DNA of 64,000 bases, taken from assembly GCA_032027145.1 (NCBI GenBank), contig JAVSMP010000001.1:2113116-2177115 (forward strand). The letters run 5' to 3'. Source of the DNA: Ignavibacterium sp. Its GTDB lineage: Bacteria; Bacteroidota; Ignavibacteria; Ignavibacteriales; Ignavibacteriaceae. The notes beneath the pieces were generated by a model, which was not told where the DNA came from, did not search any database, and saw nothing but the letters and a program-made list of their open reading frames with translations. Shown piece after piece: positions 20,214 to 58,938 of this stretch. Position numbers and translations under genes: made by a program. Position 1 is the stretch's first letter. The number at the start of each line of letters is the position of its first letter.

Positions 20214-21230
20214 CTATTTCTTTTTAGTTTTTATCTTATTTACTTTCTTAACCTGCTTCTTAGGCTTAACAGTTTTCTTCTTTTCAGATTTTTTCTTTGT
20301 CTTGGATTTTGAAGACTTAACTTGTTTAGTTTTTTTTGCAGTTGATTTTTTACTTTTCAGTTTTTCAATTGCTTTTAACATCGTGATCCCAATATCAGCA
20401 GGGCTTTCAATTACCAGAATTCCTGCTTTTTTCATTGCTGTCATTTTCTCCGCTGCGGTTCCTTTACCGCCTGAGATGATAGCTCCAGCGTGACCCATTC
20501 TTCTTCCCGGAGGTGCAGTTCTTCCGGCAATAAAACCAACCACAGGTTTCTTAACATTCTTCTTAATAAACTCAGCAGCTTCTTCTTCAGCACTGCCGCC
20601 GATTTCACCAATCATCACAATACCTTCAGTATCATTATCATCGTTAAACATTTTTATAATATCAATAAATCTTGATCCGATAACCGGATCGCCGCCAATG
20701 CCAACACATGTTGATTGTCCAAGATTTACATCTGTTAATTGTTTAACTGCTTCATAAGTTAAGGTACCAGAGCGCGATACAACTCCGATACTTCCTTTCT
20801 TATGAATGAACCCTGGCATAATTCCAACTTTAGCAATTCCGGGTGATATTACACCGGGACAATTTGGTCCGACAAGAATAACTTCCTTATTTCTTATTGA
20901 ATCATAAACCTTTAACATATCATTTGTTGGAATTCCTTCAGTGATGCAGATAATATATTTTATTCCGGCATTAGCGGCTTCTAATATTGCATCTGCAGCA
21001 AATGCCGGCGGTACAAATATTACTGATGTATTTGCCTTTTGAATTTTTACAGCCTCTTCAACTGTATTAAATACCGGAACACCTTGAAAATCTGTGCCGC
21101 CCTTACCAGGTGTAACTCCTGCAACTACTCTTGTTCCATATTCAATCATCTGAGATGTATGGAAAGAGCCTTCACTACCTGTAATACCTTGTACAACCAG
21201 GCGGGTATTTTTATTGATTATAATTGGCAT
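20214..21230 (-). CDS. sucD: Succinyl-CoA synthetase alpha subunit with a lysine-rich C-terminal tail
   Basis: Catalytic subunit forming succinate and ATP/GTP from succinyl-CoA in the TCA cycle. CoA-binding and ligase domains are complete: [14 protein letters not shown] near residue 11, GPNCPG at 121, and the phosphohistidine His247 in [13 protein letters not shown]. Family members usually have about 290 residues; this one has 338, because residues 290-338 form a tail in which 26 of 49 residues are Lys, mixed with Ser, Thr, Gln and Val. The core is unaltered. The beta subunit gene sucC is not in the window. Followed by ndk after 9 bp; a TATTTTTG promoter box lies upstream. Confidence 0.96.
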
Positions 21231-23419: not shown

Positions 23420-23453
23420 TTTGAATTATTTGAATTTATAGCATATATTTTTG
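23420..23453 (+). promoter_or_regulatory. Bacteroidota-type promoter of the NhaC-family antiporter gene
   Basis: TTTG (23420-23423), 22 bases, TATTTTTG (23446-23453): both elements match. The box covers the upstream candidate TTG and GTG start codons at 23451/23454, so translation must begin further downstream, most simply at TTG 23496. Confidence 0.55.
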
Positions 23454-23495
23454 GTGTTATTTAAACAAGTATTATTCCACTTAATATTTAATAAT

Positions 23496-25382
23496 TTGAA
23501 CAAATACATTTTTGCAGGTCTTTTTCTTTTATTTTTTTATTCAGGTGCATTTGCTCAGAAAATAACTTCGCCTTCTCTGGTGTTAAGTGATATCAGTTTT
23601 AATATAAATGGAACAGGGTTTTCCGATACATTAAAAACGATTGAAATAAAATTTATTAGTGATTCATATTCTAAAGAGATAAAAGTTGATTTAGCTGAAG
23701 GATCATTTGATACAGCTTTAACAATTCCGAATGCAGGAAAATACAAACTGATTTATTCCGGAGGTAAACAAGAAATTTCAGTAAATGTAATTCCAGGAAT
23801 ATTAAGTATTGTACCTCCAATTCTTGCTATTGTTCTTGCATTGCTTTTTAAGCAAGTGGTCATTTCTTTGATACTCGGTATCTATTCAGGCTCGTTATTT
23901 ATAAATGGTTATAATCCGCTTACTGCATTTTTAAGATTGATTGATAAATATATTATTGAAGCAGTCAGCGATGTTTCGCATACGCAGGTTATAATTTTTA
24001 CTTTACTCTTTGGCGGAGTGATTGGTTTAATTTCAAAAAGCGGCGGCACTACCGGAATTGCAAACTCTCTCTCAAAATTAGCTCGCACACGAAAATCAGG
24101 AATGATTGCAACCTGGCTTTCAGGTTTATTGATTTTTTTCGATGATTATGCGAATGCTCTTGTGGTCGGGAACCTTATGCGTCCTATAACCGATAAATTA
24201 AAAGTCTCGCGTGAAAAGCTGTCCTTTATAGTAGATGCAACTTCGGCACCGGTTGCAAGTATTTTTATAGTCAGTTCGTGGATAGGTTATGAAGTTGGAT
24301 TAATTCAGGATGGTTTAACATCCATTGGTTCATCATTAAATGCATATTCAGTTTTTCTTGATTCAATAATTTTTAGATTTTATCCAATTGCGATGTTGTT
24401 TTTTATTCTTGTTATTGCCCTTACCAATAGAGATTTTGGTCCAATGTTAAAAGCCGAACGAAGGGCGGTTAGAGAAGGGCTGGTATCATCCCCAACTTCA
24501 TCAAGCAATAAATTAATTGAGTCTAGTGAATTATTTGGGAATGAGGATAAAGCAAAATGGTATAATGGAATTGTTCCGATATTTTCATTGGTAATCATTA
24601 CAATTGCCGGTTTGATCTATACCGGTTTAAGTTCGGTAAAAGAACAAGGTTTAACTGACTACAGTGTTAAAGATATTGTCAGCAATTCTAATTCATATCT
24701 TGCCTTGCTTTGGGGAAGTTCCTCTGCGTGTTTAATTGCTGCTGTAATGATAATTGCTCAGAAGATTCTGTCAGTTAAAGAGACAATTGATGCGTGGTTT
24801 AACGGTATCCGTTCAATGCTTTTGGCAGTTCTTATATTAACACTTGCCTGGAGCATTGGTGCTGTTACAAATGAAATGCGAACTGCAGATTATATTATTA
24901 GTTTAATAAGTCAATCCATTGATCCAAGATTTCTTCCTGTTATTGTTTTTGCTGTTTGCGGACTGATAAGTTTTGCTACTGGTACAAGCTGGGGAACAAT
25001 GGCAATTATGTTTCCAATTGTAATTCCACTTTCTGCAGCGGTTACACAAATGAATAATTATTCTTCTGCTGATACACATTTAATTTTAATTGGAGTTGTT
25101 AGCTCTGTTCTGGCAGGCTGCGTTTGGGGAGATCATTGTTCACCAATTTCTGATACAACAATTTTAAGTTCAATGGCATCAAGCTGTGATCATATTGATC
25201 ATGTACGCACTCAGCTTACTTATGCTGTTTCGGTTGCTGTTGTTACAATGCTGGTTGGTGATATTTTAACGGCGTTTGGTTTATCACCCTATATTGCTTT
25301 GTTATTGATTGCATCAGTTCTAATTGGGATGATCTATTTATTTGGAAGAAGAGCAGATGATGTTTCATCAGAAGATTTTTAA
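23496..25382 (+). CDS. Na+/H+ antiporter, NhaC family, with an N-terminal extracytoplasmic domain
   Basis: Membrane antiporter with about a dozen helices from residue ~105 onward. Conserved blocks: GILSIVPPILAIVLALLFKQ, FGGVIGLISKSGG, SGLLIFFDDYANALVVGN, DATSAPVASIF, and CGLISFATGTSWGTMAIMFP with GCVWGDHCSPISDTTILSS, typical of NhaC-type transporters. Before the first transport helix there is a signal-like segment (MNKYIFAGLFLLFFYSGAFAQ when started at TTG 23496) and about 85 residues of soluble, beta-rich sequence ending NVIP, which would be periplasmic. A longer reading from TTG 23451 overlaps a promoter box and is less likely. The substrate (Na+/H+, or a carboxylate/amino acid exchange seen in relatives) is uncertain. 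Confidence 0.88.
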   Translation: MNKYIFAGLFLLFFYSGAFAQKITSPSLVLSDISFNINGTGFSDTLKTIEIKFISDSYSKEIKVDLAEGSFDTALTIPNAGKYKLIYSGGKQEISVNVIPGILSIVPPILAIVLALLFKQVVISLILGIYSGSLFINGYNPLTAFLRLIDKYIIEAVSDVSHTQVIIFTLLFGGVIGLISKSGGTTGIANSLSKLARTRKSGMIATWLSGLLIFFDDYANALVVGNLMRPITDKLKVSREKLSFIVDATSAPVASIFIVSSWIGYEVGLIQDGLTSIGSSLNAYSVFLDSIIFRFYPIAMLFFILVIALTNRDFGPMLKAERRAVREGLVSSPTSSSNKLIESSELFGNEDKAKWYNGIVPIFSLVIITIAGLIYTGLSSVKEQGLTDYSVKDIVSNSNSYLALLWGSSSACLIAAVMIIAQKILSVKETIDAWFNGIRSMLLAVLILTLAWSIGAVTNEMRTADYIISLISQSIDPRFLPVIVFAVCGLISFATGTSWGTMAIMFPIVIPLSAAVTQMNNYSSADTHLILIGVVSSVLAGCVWGDHCSPISDTTILSSMASSCDHIDHVRTQLTYAVSVAVVTMLVGDILTAFGLSPYIALLLIASVLIGMIYLFGRRADDVSSEDF

Positions 25383-25521: not shown

Positions 25522-25716
25522 TTACGACTTATCAGTTTTCTTTACATCGTCATCAGTTTTCTTAATCTCGTCTTCAACATCTTTTAAGGACTTCTTGAAT
25601 TCTCTCATGCCTTTACCTAAGCCTTGAGCAAGCTCAGGAATTTTTTTCGCACCAAATAATAAAAGGATAACAAGCACAATTATTATTATTTCACCAGTGC
25701 CTAAGTTTCCAAACAT
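25522..25716 (-). CDS. tatA: Twin-arginine translocase subunit TatA/TatE
   Basis: Pore-forming subunit of the Tat system that exports folded proteins. 64 residues: a short periplasmic N-terminus (MFGNLGTGE), one membrane helix ([21 protein letters not shown]), the [22 protein letters not shown] amphipathic hinge region and an acidic/Lys-rich tail ([13 protein letters not shown]). This is the standard TatA layout. It is the last gene of the minus-strand purC-like/psd/pssA/purS/purQ cluster, 10 bp after purQ. No tatC is in the window. Confidence 0.95.
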
Positions 25717-25726
25717 AATATCACCT

Positions 25727-26428
25727 TTAGTTTAATATATAATTTGCAATTGATTTAAATATTAATTGCCCATCAGTTCTGCCAAGAGTTGGGTCGCAAG
25801 CTCTTTCAGGATGAGGCATCATTCCCATAACATTACCGTTTTTATTTACAATTCCTGCAATGTTAAGTTGAGAACCATTTGGATTTACCTCATCATTAAC
25901 ATTTCCATCAGCATCAGAATATCTGAACAAAATCTGTTTATTTAATACAAGTTCTTCTAACAGTTTTTCATCAGCAAAATAATTACCTTCACCGTGTGCC
26001 ACAGGTATTTTAACTGATAATAAATCTTTCGTAATCTCACTTGTAAAAATTGTATCACGATTATCAACCGAAAGATAAACATCTTTACAAGTAAACTTAA
26101 GGGAATTATTGCGTATCATAACACCGGGCAGTAAACCTGCTTCTAATAAAATCTGAAAGCCATTACAAATACCAATTACAATTCCGCCTTTATTTGCAAA
26201 GCTGATAACAGAATTCATTATGGGAGAAAATCTTGCAATTGCGCCTGTGCGAAGATAATCACCGTAAGAAAATCCGCCTGGCAAAAGAACAACACTGCTT
26301 TGTTTAAGGTCTGTATCCTTATGCCACAAAAATTCAACTTTGTAATCAAGAATTTTTTTTAACGAGTAATAAGCATCGTGATCGCAATTAGATCCGGGAA
26401 AAACTACAACTCCAAATTTCAGACTCAT
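25727..26428 (-). CDS. purQ: Phosphoribosylformylglycinamidine synthase, glutaminase subunit PurQ
   Basis: Supplies ammonia from glutamine to PurL in step four of purine synthesis. The 233-residue protein is a class I glutamine amidotransferase: [16 protein letters not shown] at the start, the nucleophile Cys in [17 protein letters not shown] near residue 88, and the His/Glu pair in [11 protein letters not shown] at the end. It overlaps purS by 4 bases. purL itself is not in the window, although small-PurL systems need PurS, PurQ and PurL together. Confidence 0.97.
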
Positions 26429-26676
26429 TTTATTTCTTCCAGCTTAAACTCAAAATCTTCCATAATAGGATTAGCAAGAAGTTTTGAACAATATTCATTT
26501 ACTTCTTTTTCAGCGGCGTTCCGATCATTAACATCAACATCAAACTCAATTAGTTTACCTATCCTCGTTCCGTTAATGTTGGTAATACCAAGATGTTTAG
26601 CACCTTTTTCAACTGCAACACCCTGCGGGTCAAGAATGGAAGCCCGTCTTTTTATTAATACTGTAGCTTTAAACAC
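26425..26676 (-). CDS. purS: Phosphoribosylformylglycinamidine synthase subunit PurS
   Basis: 83-residue structural subunit that bridges PurQ and the small form of PurL. It begins MFKATVLIKRRASILDPQGVAVEKGAK, where ILDPQG and the following helix are diagnostic, and has a ferredoxin-like beta-alpha-beta layout. Its presence shows that the organism uses the Bacillus-type three-protein FGAM synthase. It sits between pssA (3 bp upstream) and purQ (overlapping), mixing purine and phospholipid genes in one operon. Confidence 0.95.
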   Translation of the reverse strand: MFKATVLIKRRASILDPQGVAVEKGAKHLGITNINGTRIGKLIEFDVDVNDRNAAEKEVNEYCSKLLANPIMEDFEFKLEEIK

Positions 26677-26679
26677 TTT

Positions 26680-27399
26680 TCACTCAGATTTTTTATTTGA
26701 GAAATAGTTAAAAATTTGTCTAAAAATACCAAATACAATCATGAAAACAAAAATGAAGAACAAACCTTTGACAGTGAAGAACACGAGTAATACAAATACT
26801 AATAGATAGACTAAAATTAAGTAAGGATTTTTTTTGAAATTTTTGAAAGCATATTTTGATAAAGTATCATATTTAACATTGCTTACCATCAGCAACGATA
26901 AACCAATAACAAGCGGAATAATAAAATGCTCTTCAACTCCACTAAATCCATTATTATAAAAACCGAGAACGAAACTTACAATTGTTAATGCTGAAGAGGG
27001 AATTGGTAAACCGGTAAAATAAGCTTTATCAAATCCAACTAGTTGAACATTAAATCTTGCAAGGCGAAAACCGCCTGCAATCATTATTATAGAAGAGAGA
27101 ATAATTCCGATAGTTTCAAACTGGTAGAAATAAGTTTTATAAAGTAAAAACGACGGAGCTGCACCAAAACTTATAATATCCGAAAGTGAATCAAGTTCAA
27201 CACCAAGTTCGCTGCTTGATTTTGTCAGACGTGCCATAAATCCATCAAGCGCGTCAAACACTGCAGCAACAATAATCAGCCAGGCTGCATATACATAGTT
27301 TTCCTGACTTGCAGAAATTATCGAAAAAAAACCGCTGAACATGTTCATAGCGGTAAACAGATTTGGTATTACAGAAGGTGTAAGTCTAAATCGATTCAT
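26680..27399 (-). CDS. pssA: CDP-diacylglycerol-serine O-phosphatidyltransferase
   Basis: Makes phosphatidylserine from CDP-diacylglycerol and serine in the membrane. 239 residues, with about seven helices. The CDP-alcohol phosphotransferase motif is complete in DALDGFMARLTKSSSELGVE followed by LDSLSD (pattern DGx2ARx8Gx3Dx3D). RLTPSVIPNLFTAMNMFSGF at the N-terminus is typical for the Bacillus-type PssA. The gene is 3 bp from psd, which acts on its product, so the two steps of phosphatidylethanolamine synthesis are co-expressed. Confidence 0.95.
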   Translation of the reverse strand: MNRFRLTPSVIPNLFTAMNMFSGFFSIISASQENYVYAAWLIIVAAVFDALDGFMARLTKSSSELGVELDSLSDIISFGAAPSFLLYKTYFYQFETIGIILSSIIMIAGGFRLARFNVQLVGFDKAYFTGLPIPSSALTIVSFVLGFYNNGFSGVEEHFIIPLVIGLSLLMVSNVKYDTLSKYAFKNFKKNPYLILVYLLVFVLLVFFTVKGLFFIFVFMIVFGIFRQIFNYFSNKKSE

Positions 27400-27402
27400 T
27401 AA

Positions 27403-28047
27403 TTAATATTCAAAAAGAATTGTTTCACCAGCAGTAACGTTATCATCCTTTTTTACTTTTACAAGCCACTGCTCCGGAACAATTATATCAACACGACTTC
27501 CAAATTTAATCATACCGAACCTATTTCCAATGGATACAGATTCTCCGATTTTTACTTCGCTGATGATTCTTCTGGCAATAAAACCGGCAATCTGAATGAA
27601 TAAAACTTTTCCAGCAGGCGAATTGATACCAATTTCATTTCTTTCATTTTGTTCCGAAGCTTTATCTTCAAAAGCAGCAATGTAATTTCCTTCGACATAT
27701 TTTAAATAGTCAACTTTTCCTGTTATCGGTATTCGGTTTACATGAACATTAAGGGGAGACATAAAGATTGATACCATTTTTGCTTTGCTGTTAAGAAATC
27801 TCTCATCAATTACGTCTTTTACAAATAAAACTCTACCATCTGCTGGTGATACAACTATATTGGACTTTTCAGGTACTTTTCTTTCGGGATCACGAAAGAA
27901 GTTAAGTGTAAAAATAGCAAGCAAAACAGCAGTAAGAATTAATGGGACTCTAATATAATTTGAACTTGAAAAAATACTCAAAACAATAAGAATGAAGACA
28001 ATAAAAAATACAACACCTATTGTATTGTAACCATATTTTGTAAACAT
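27403..28047 (-). CDS. psd: Phosphatidylserine decarboxylase proenzyme (short, PSD-B type)
   Basis: Decarboxylates phosphatidylserine to phosphatidylethanolamine using a pyruvoyl group made by self-cleavage. The 214-residue protein has N-terminal helices, VSPADGRVLFVKDV near residue 66, FMSPLNVHVNRIP near 93-105, and the cleavage motif in FGMIKFGSRVDIIVP, where Gly-Ser provides the pyruvoyl precursor. The FGS form rather than LGST is that of the short archaeal/Bacteroidota enzymes. ATG 28047 shares one base with the stop of the upstream PurC-like gene; pssA follows. Confidence 0.95.
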   Translation of the reverse strand: MFTKYGYNTIGVVFFIVFILIVLSIFSSSNYIRVPLILTAVLLAIFTLNFFRDPERKVPEKSNIVVSPADGRVLFVKDVIDERFLNSKAKMVSIFMSPLNVHVNRIPITGKVDYLKYVEGNYIAAFEDKASEQNERNEIGINSPAGKVLFIQIAGFIARRIISEVKIGESVSIGNRFGMIKFGSRVDIIVPEQWLVKVKKDDNVTAGETILFEY

Positions 28048-28724
28048 TATTTTACACTCGCAATATTAAAAAGCTGGTCTGTATATTTTCTTATTTCGGC
28101 AGCAGTTGTAAGTTTGTAAGGATTTATTGCTTTAGCAGAATCACTTTTAGGAAAAATTTTGATACTTGCTGGTGAAAAGTCTCCGGTTAAAAAAAGTTTA
28201 TCATCTGTTTTTCCAAAATGGCAGCATACTTCAGCAAGATTTTCATTTCGTCTTTCAAAAAATGATTTAAGAACAGCATTTATTTTAGAACACATTCGTG
28301 TAACTAACTTCAGATCTTCAGGGGTACAAAGATCGAAGGCAATTAAGTGACTTTCACTGATAATGCTTTCTTTACCGCATCCATAATGAAATTCAAATAC
28401 AGGCAGATTTAATTCAGCACCTTCCTTCATTCCAAAAATTTTAGAATTTCTTTTATCAGCATTATTAAGGATTTTTACTCTAAAAGACAGCTGATTACTT
28501 ACTGAAAATTTCAGTGAGTTCTCACCATCTTTTCTTAAGAATGTTGTCGGGATATGATATTCTTTTAAATAATCAAAGAAAAATGCACTGGTCAAAGCTA
28601 TTTTTTTGCCAATATCTTTAACTTTTACTTTTTTACCGTTAATCTGGTAACTATCCAGATACTCCAGCAGAAGATAATTACCTTCATCCAATGGAATATC
28701 TTTATGTAGTAAAGTTTCTACCAT
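28047..28724 (-). CDS. Divergent SAICAR synthetase (PurC)-like protein lacking catalytic motifs
   Basis: A 225-residue protein that aligns by eye along most of its length with PurC. Matching blocks: LLLEYLDSYQINGKK (PurC: LLxEFxDDxxAxxG), DYLKEYHIPTTF (LxxxGIPTxF), KIFGMKEGAELNLPVFEFHY (LGIEEGxELxPPLFDxxY), LCTPEDLKLVTRMCSKINAV with LKSFFERR, and HFGKTDDKLFLTGDFSP (EFGxxxGxxxLxDExSPD). The PurC catalytic residues are altered: the N-terminal GKAK segment is absent, R-N-x-A-A-G-S reads KILNNADKRNS, and DExSPDxxR reads GDFSPASIK. A complete PurC is encoded at 58045-58938, so this is a probably non-catalytic or re-purposed paralogue. It heads the operon with psd (1-base overlap), pssA, purS, purQ and tatA. 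Its role is unknown. Confidence 0.75.
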   Translation of the reverse strand: MVETLLHKDIPLDEGNYLLLEYLDSYQINGKKVKVKDIGKKIALTSAFFFDYLKEYHIPTTFLRKDGENSLKFSVSNQLSFRVKILNNADKRNSKIFGMKEGAELNLPVFEFHYGCGKESIISESHLIAFDLCTPEDLKLVTRMCSKINAVLKSFFERRNENLAEVCCHFGKTDDKLFLTGDFSPASIKIFPKSDSAKAINPYKLTTAAEIRKYTDQLFNIASVK

Positions 28725-58044: not shown

Positions 58045-58938
58045 ATGAAAGATAATGTAATCCTCGAAACAAATTTCCCTAACCTAAAGTTCTTTAAAAA
58101 AGGTAAAGTTAGAGACCTTTATGATTTAGGTGATTATTATTTAATAGTTTCAACAGATCGTTTGTCTGCATTTGATGTGATAATGGCACAGGGAATTCCT
58201 TTTAAGGGAAAAGTACTTAACAGGATTTCTGAGTTTTGGTTTAATCATACCAAACAAATTATTAAAAACCATCTTATAACTACTGATGTAAATAAATTTC
58301 CTGATGAATGTCTTCAGTATTCTGATGTTCTTAAAGGCAGAAGTATGCTTGTTAAGAAAACACATATAATTCCAATTGAGAGTGTAGTCAGAGGTTATAT
58401 CACAGGCTCCGGCTGGGCAGATTACAAAAAATCCGGTGAAGTATGTGGAATTAAATTACCCGAAGGAATGGTAGAATCAGAAAAATTTTCAGAACCGCTA
58501 TTTACTCCTTCAACCAAAGCTGAAATTGGCTTACACGATGAAAATATTTCAGAACAAAAGGCTGTGGAAATTGCTGGTGCTGATACAATAAAGTTTATCA
58601 AAGAAAAGACGATTGAGATTTATAAAAGTGCTGTTAATTTTGCCCTTGGTAAAGGTATTATAATTGCCGATACGAAAATGGAATTTGGAAGAGTTGGAAA
58701 TGAAATAATCTTGGTGGATGAGTTATTAACTCCCGATTCTTCAAGATTCTGGCCTTTGGATAAATATGAAAAGGGAAAATCACAGGAAAGTTTTGATAAA
58801 CAATTTGTACGTGATCATTTGGTATCAGTTAAATTTAATAAACAACCACCGCCGCCGATGCTGCCACAAGTTATTATAAATAAAACAAGTGAAAAATATC
58901 TGGAAGCACTTAAAATGCTTACTGGTGAAAGTTTGTGA
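58045..58938 (+). CDS. purC: Phosphoribosylaminoimidazole-succinocarboxamide synthase (SAICAR synthetase)
   Basis: Step eight of purine synthesis, ligating aspartate to CAIR with ATP. The 297-residue protein is of the long, yeast-like type. All motifs are intact: KGKVRDLYDLGDYYLIVSTD, RLSAFDVIMAQGIPFKG, SVVRGYITGSGWADYKKSG, FTPSTKAEIGLHDENI, TKMEFGR and LVDELLTPDSSRFW. It heads an eight-gene run with 0-12 bp spacing or overlaps. The degenerate PurC-like protein of 28047-28724 belongs to the short-type branch and differs in exactly these positions, so this is the functional enzyme. Confidence 0.97.
   Translation: MKDNVILETNFPNLKFFKKGKVRDLYDLGDYYLIVSTDRLSAFDVIMAQGIPFKGKVLNRISEFWFNHTKQIIKNHLITTDVNKFPDECLQYSDVLKGRSMLVKKTHIIPIESVVRGYITGSGWADYKKSGEVCGIKLPEGMVESEKFSEPLFTPSTKAEIGLHDENISEQKAVEIAGADTIKFIKEKTIEIYKSAVNFALGKGIIIADTKMEFGRVGNEIILVDELLTPDSSRFWPLDKYEKGKSQESFDKQFVRDHLVSVKFNKQPPPPMLPQVIINKTSEKYLEALKMLTGESL

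Follow-up and report, generated by a model that had tools for sequence, protein, structure and literature searches.

A PurC-like gene with lost catalytic residues and a derived basic helix face precedes psd in Ignavibacteria

The PurC-like gene and its operon

The window analyzed here is a stretch of 64,000 nucleotides from Ignavibacterium sp. (assembly GCA_032027145.1, contig JAVSMP010000001.1, positions 2,113,116 to 2,177,115 of the forward strand), considered at its full length. On its reverse strand it encodes a PurC-like protein of 225 residues, here termed D, whose open reading frame is preceded by the sequence AGAGG and followed by the genes psd, pssA, purS, purQ and tatA (Table 1). This gene order had been given in a preliminary description made from the sequence, and it is borne out by matches to Pfam and TIGRFAM-type models; the one-base overlap that was described between D and psd is likewise present as TAATG. 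Between tatA and gatA the window carries, on the opposite strand, a gene for a large membrane transporter-like protein (23451-25382, +), which is also found beyond tatA in loci L034 and L035; in L037 gatA directly follows tatA (throughout, G and L denote genomes and loci, and f1, f2 and so on denote families, in the genome set used). Elsewhere in the window a protein of 338 residues, which we take to be succinyl-CoA synthetase alpha-like, possesses a lysine-rich C-terminal tail of about 45 residues (20214-20350, -).

Table 1. Features of the D operon and the second PurC gene in the window
Feature	Coordinates	Strand	Basis
tatA	25522..25716	-	TIGR01411 70.3 bits, cut-off 53.9
purQ	25727..26428	-	NF002957 317.8 bits, cut-off 212
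purS	26425..26676	-	PF02700 E 3.3e-26
pssA, CDP-diacylglycerol-serine O-phosphatidyltransferase	26680..27399	-	TIGR00473 142.6 bits, cut-off 107
psd, phosphatidylserine decarboxylase	27403..28047	-	PF02666 E 6.1e-45
D, gene of a probable PurC-like pseudoenzyme, 225 aa	28047..28724	-	PF01259 E 4.9e-15; PurC fold Z 19.8; 1/17 catalytic/ligand columns kept
Stop codon of D, last base shared with first base of psd ATG (TAATG)	28047..28049	-	sequence
D codons for residues 181-189 (GDFSPASIK), in place of DExSPDxxR	28158..28184	-	alignment
D codons for residues 139-159, conserved basic helix face (K139, R143, K147, K153, R158, R159)	28248..28310	-	K/R counts, 65 D-family rows vs 20 canonical
D codons for residues 86-93 (LNNADKRN), in place of substrate loop RNxAAGS	28446..28469	-	alignment
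Canonical long-type PurC, 297 aa	58045..58938	+	PF01259 E 9.8e-75, 251.8 bits

The relationship to PurC, which had been proposed from an alignment by eye, is significant in profile searches: D matches the Pfam SAICAR_synt model (PF01259) with 56.4 bits against a cut-off of 20, and recovers PurC chains from the PDB both with phmmer (E down to 2.1e-13) and with a profile (E 3.4e-25), the homology with short-type PurC covering most of its length. Its score against TIGR00081 (purC) is 26.2 bits, well under the equivalog cut-off of 189.9. An AlphaFold model of D adopts the SAICAR synthetase fold, aligning 202 residues with 3nua_A at Z 19.8 and rmsd 3.3. PurC structures as a group are matched at Z 14.7-19.8, and all other chains listed fall below 6, among them succinyl-CoA synthetase, D-Ala ligase and the RIO/Bud32 kinases. 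The model was built with 15 sequences and has a mean pLDDT of 75, dropping below 50 at residues 1-15 and 90-120, and the five models ranged from 33 to 75.

In addition to D, the 3.67 Mb genome, which is assembled in one contig, encodes one PF01259 protein over the cut-off, namely the complete second PurC already noted in the preliminary description, which proves to be of the long type. A third match elsewhere in the same genome (C1:1562717-1562980, L003) is weak (13.6 bits, E 0.067), lies under the cut-off and falls within a frame of 970 residues. Since the PurC at 58045-58938 is of the long type, and D aligns best with short-type chains, an origin of D as a recent duplicate of that gene was rejected. 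The closest named relative is 'Ignavibacteriota bacterium isolate IGN3' (95% identity).

Conserved linkage to psd and distribution of D

The psd gene follows D in all 53 loci of a first set (45 distinct sequences), in all 20 loci from families f5, f8, f14, f51 and f54-f58, and in all 23 further loci, two of which duplicate the records L039 and L047; a recount places psd after D for all 86 distinct D proteins read. The two genes overlap or are at most 30 bases apart in 94 of 96 loci; they are separated by 98 bases in L049 and by 208 bases in L129, where the psd match is partial. The one-base overlap is the arrangement in the genus of the window. The pssA gene was seen in 51/53, 19/20 and 23/23 of these loci, the misses (L007, L036 and L133) being stretches cut by contig ends. 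The genes purS and purQ lie beside D in most of the loci with flanks long enough to show them, though their linkage is looser than that of psd: in L018, L049 and L051, where D retains psd and pssA, tatA comes directly after pssA, and purS and purQ are not adjacent. Of the psd and purS linkage that was to be followed across orthologues, the psd part is therefore universal among the 86 distinct proteins, whereas the purS/purQ part breaks down in these three loci.

A single-sequence search recovered D in 39 of 59 genomes, comprising the window's own, 33 of the 36 other genomes of f1, all five of f3 and none of the 17 of f2. Of the f1 genomes without a match, G010 is 76% and G027 87% complete, and psd was also not found in either; the third, G012, is 98% complete and lacks D, and its psd is immediately preceded by ybaB-recR. 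When the class was searched with a profile built from 45 D proteins, 110 of 294 genomes gave a match. Judged by their score and family, 63 of these matches are D-type (E < 1e-33), distributed over 11 families (f1, f3, f5, f8, f14, f51, f54, f55, f56, f57 and f58), and all 39 that lie outside f1 and f3 were read. The remaining 47 (E > 1e-31) belong to f13, f15 and f16; 12 of them were read, and all twelve are canonical short PurC. When 296 genomes of the phylum were searched with a profile, nothing outside the class scored better than E 1.0e-28, and the matches there (one per genome) are taken for canonical PurC by score, the eight that were aligned being canonical.

Loss of catalytic residues and gain of a basic helix face

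Conservation of the active site was scored at 17 columns, which correspond, as matched by motif, to contacts named for human PAICS (PMC9376930) and for E. coli PurC (PMC3261824) in the accessible parts of these papers. The alignment comprised 65 D-family rows (45 from f1 and f3 and 20 from other families) and 20 canonical PurC rows. Canonical proteins keep 16-17 of the 17 columns, D proteins from the other families 2-12, those of f1 and f3 0-4, and D of the window a single one. The preliminary description had allowed that orthologues might carry the catalytic residues at shifted positions; the full set is present in none of the 65 D-family rows, and a mere shift was rejected on this alignment of 65 D-family and 20 canonical proteins.

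In D of the window the three altered motifs are as first described: the GKAK sequence is absent, the columns of G16, K17 and K19 in the GKxK ATP loop being occupied by T, L and H, NNADKRNS stands for RNxAAGS, and GDFSPASIK for DExSPDxxR. The ATP and metal columns lost are G16, K17, K19, E97, E193 and D207. At the columns of the Mg and aspartate contacts E97, D137, K191 and K228 (human numbers, motif-matched), as given in the accessible part of PMC9376930, D has R, E, C and I. The CAIR/ADP contacts R94, S100, D175, E179 and R199, listed for E. coli PurC in the accessible part of PMC3261824, are replaced by L, R, E, H and K; none of these five is kept in 43 of the 45 f1/f3 rows, and all five are kept in 4 of the 20 rows from other families. 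The least changed D proteins (L129, L130 and L132, from f56, f57 and f51) keep the RN-AAGS loop, E193 and R215, and have lost K17, E97, D137, K191 and K228. Pocket residues vary among the D families; within f1 and f3 the DKRxxKIF loop, SESHL and DFxPxSLK are well conserved, as are K189 (38/45) and R92 (34/45). As judged from the alignment, the catalytic residues would have been lost stepwise across the D families, with intermediates still alive. Given that up to 12 of the 17 columns are kept, and that four of the 20 rows have all five E. coli residues, residual ligand binding or activity is possible in some members outside f1 and f3.

The D proteins have in turn acquired a distinctive surface feature, in that one face of the long helix 135-157, together with its end, is basic. 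Positions 139, 143, 147, 153, 158 and 159 bear K or R in 61, 65, 65, 64, 65 and 65 of the 65 D-family rows, as against 3, 5, 10, 12, 7 and 18 of the 20 canonical rows. Position 158 is R in all 65 D-family rows and in none of the 20 canonical ones, and R159 is invariant across the same 65. On a helical wheel 139, 143, 147 and 158 share an arc of no more than 100 degrees, and A150 and S154 lie between them. The pattern recurs in 23 loci outside the set in which it was found (two are repeats, leaving 21 new, and many come from genera already represented among the rows). K147, R158 and R159 occur in 23/23, and R143 in 21, the other two having K there. The variable and mostly polar character of positions 139, 143 and 158 in canonical PurC suggests that the basic face of D is solvent-exposed. 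The columns that are otherwise at least 88% conserved over the 65 D rows are either conserved in PurC (N87, H126, P185) or only partly derived (P59, K147); those common to all 65 are mainly structural and shared with PurC, plus the basic helix.

Origin, selection and possible functions

Among the families with canonical matches (f13, f15 and f16), 11 of 12 loci have a canonical short purC immediately preceding psd, and in the twelfth (L143) psd is found about 3.6 kb beyond it. The adjacency of a canonical purC with psd and pssA is also seen in four genomes of f19, which belongs to another class (L058, L059, L061 and L065), implying that this cluster of purine and phospholipid genes is older than D. 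In a tree of 60 sequences, midpoint-rooted and with several long branches, the 20 canonical PurC rows are set apart from all 40 D-family rows with support of 100/98, and the least changed D families branch nearest to canonical PurC. The position of the canonical gene upstream of psd in those 11 loci indicates that D probably decayed in place: a short-type purC at the head of the operon would have been displaced by a long-type PurC encoded elsewhere and would have diverged where it stood, once. The initial characterization of D as a degenerate paralogue would accordingly need amending, for D would better be regarded as the short-type purC that originally belonged to an old purC-psd-pssA operon.

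This decay has not been that of a pseudogene. Measured against L034, the closest relative, the dN/dS values of D, psd, pssA and recR are 0.052, 0.080, 0.080 and 0.027, and against L035 they are 0.059, 0.070, 0.069 and 0.045; in more distant pairs silent sites are near saturation, and the D protein is slightly less conserved than Psd (59% versus 65% in L040). None of the 39 D carriers of the single-sequence search has an internal stop, and a stop was seen inside one weak match from f15 (G379), which is not D-type. D is thus under purifying selection, and a pseudogene was rejected on the intact frames and the dN/dS values of the two closest pairs. The combination of lost catalytic residues and purifying selection is that of a selected pseudoenzyme.

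The persistence of D in genomes without most purine genes bears on what is being selected. In G031 (99% complete) PurH, PurS and PurE were not found, PurD was not over the cut-off, and the only PF01259 match is D itself; G028 (96% complete) yielded no PurC apart from D, no PurS or PurE and no PurD over the cut-off, and has a PF01808 (PurH-type) match. Both retain D-psd-pssA (L051 and L018, respectively). As PurC, PurS, PurE and PurD were not found over the cut-off there, D serves something other than purine synthesis at least in these two genomes, and its role is probably a new, non-purine one. The two organisms are possible purine auxotrophs in a family otherwise making purines. In G005 the only PF01259 match is again D; this genome keeps PurE and PurD, so that an assembly gap is the likely cause.

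Taken for itself, the proposition that D is a PurC-derived pseudoenzyme is one that we hold with high confidence. An accessory or regulatory pseudoenzyme is favored because the pocket drifts while one surface is fixed and psd-pssA remains a constant neighbor. We envisage that a short-type purC headed an ancestral purC-psd-pssA operon, that a long-type PurC took over purine synthesis, and that the old gene then lost catalysis stepwise and was kept as a folded pseudoenzyme. Not the old pocket but the exposed, basic side of the long helix (K139, R143, K147, K153, R158 and R159) would probably be its working part. Made next to psd by translational coupling, D would most likely serve phosphatidylethanolamine synthesis as an accessory or regulatory subunit, and would bind Psd, PssA or acidic phospholipid through this face. 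This account as a whole, from former short-type purC to a folded pseudoenzyme acting in lipid synthesis through its basic face, we consider evenly poised. That D is specifically a non-catalytic subunit or lipid-sensing regulator of this pathway, its function having moved from the active site to the newly fixed basic helix, is put forward as a tentative suggestion.

Several considerations temper the account as a whole. Firstly, the lipid link is drawn from gene order, which D would have inherited from the canonical operon; psd adjacency being ancestral, the linkage could reflect operon inertia. Secondly, D is lacking in all 17 f2 genomes and in G012, the latter with psd kept, so that Psd can function without it. 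Thirdly, no column of Psd or PssA convincingly tracked the presence of D. The co-variation filter was passed by only S131 of Psd (aspartate in 9/9 f2) and 15 columns of PssA, the clearest of which, G122 (numbering of the window's PssA), is D or N in 9/9 f2 and D in G012; as it is G in 8/9 other genomes lacking D, this co-variation was judged uninformative. The possible residual activity outside f1 and f3, the PF01808 match in G028, the slightly lower conservation of D than of Psd in the more distant pairs and the small number of sequences behind the AlphaFold model also weigh against the account.

Among the alternatives, a new enzyme, in which the PurC pocket has been rebuilt to use ATP on another substrate (e.g. 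as a ligase or kinase with a phospholipid head group, supplied by the neighboring genes, as its target), appears unlikely. It would account for the retention of the PurC fold and for the motifs and residues well conserved within f1 and f3; the lost ATP and metal columns of the window's D speak against it, as does the variation of pocket residues from family to family, with little beyond structural positions and the basic helix common to the 65 rows. The preliminary description had left the choice between a pseudoenzyme and a new ligase made from PurC; with the ATP and metal columns lost and the surface helix fixed, the former is favored over the latter.

It is doubtful, and somewhat more so, that D is a regulatory pseudoenzyme of purine synthesis that binds canonical PurC or PurS/PurQ, in the manner of dead paralogues that control an active relative. 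The frequent proximity of purS and purQ and the presence of long-type PurC in most D carriers would fit such a role, which is at odds with the persistence of D in G031 and G028 and with the three loci in which purS and purQ are not beside it. We consider equally doubtful a regulator that uses the basic helix to bind nucleic acid (RNA or DNA, such as that of its own operon): a K/R face with small residues between (A150 and S154) in a protein encoded at the operon head could suit this function, though nothing specific supports it and the strong fold matches are to PurC only. Finally, a decaying relic kept only because psd translation needs an upstream reading frame, which the tight or overlapping D-psd junction, the ancestral position upstream of psd and the clean loss in f2 and G012 might suggest, is highly improbable given dN/dS values lower than those of psd in the two closest pairs, matched genes free of stops in every carrier listed, and the invariance of R158 and R159.

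As a kind, dead paralogues of enzymes that have taken on new roles are already known. D shares with short-type PurC (SAICAR synthetase, EC 6.3.2.6; PF01259, TIGR00081; PDB 3nua, 2gqr) its homology, predicted fold and operon place upstream of psd, and differs from it in keeping one of 17 columns, in scoring far under the equivalog cut-off, in its new basic helix face and in coexisting with a full long-type PurC. The extra purC-like genes of archaea, as covered in the accessible part of PMC3261824, resemble D in being second PurC-like genes of doubted activity; they are sometimes truncated, are presented as recent duplicates or possible transfers, and lie near purine genes or away from them, and that part of the source describes neither a class-wide family with a derived surface nor a psd link. 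The AdoMetDC prozyme of Trypanosoma brucei, a catalytically dead paralogue that activates the enzyme (PMC5201418, accessible part), is comparable in that selection has retained a dead enzyme fold for a new role, but it partners its own active paralogue, whereas the operon partner of D, Psd, is of another family. A search of the full-text literature, limited to open-licence papers, found among the papers listed no description of a PurC-derived pseudoenzyme family of this kind.

Most D proteins score over the Pfam SAICAR_synt cut-off, and metabolic reconstructions should not take them for PurC; G031 and G028 would wrongly appear to possess PurC, since their only match over this cut-off is D. At a single operon position the D families seem to preserve living stages of the passage from a working enzyme to a pseudoenzyme, and they show a clear residue signature for the putative new function. 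If the lipid role is true, D would be an unrecognized regulator or subunit of phosphatidylethanolamine synthesis.
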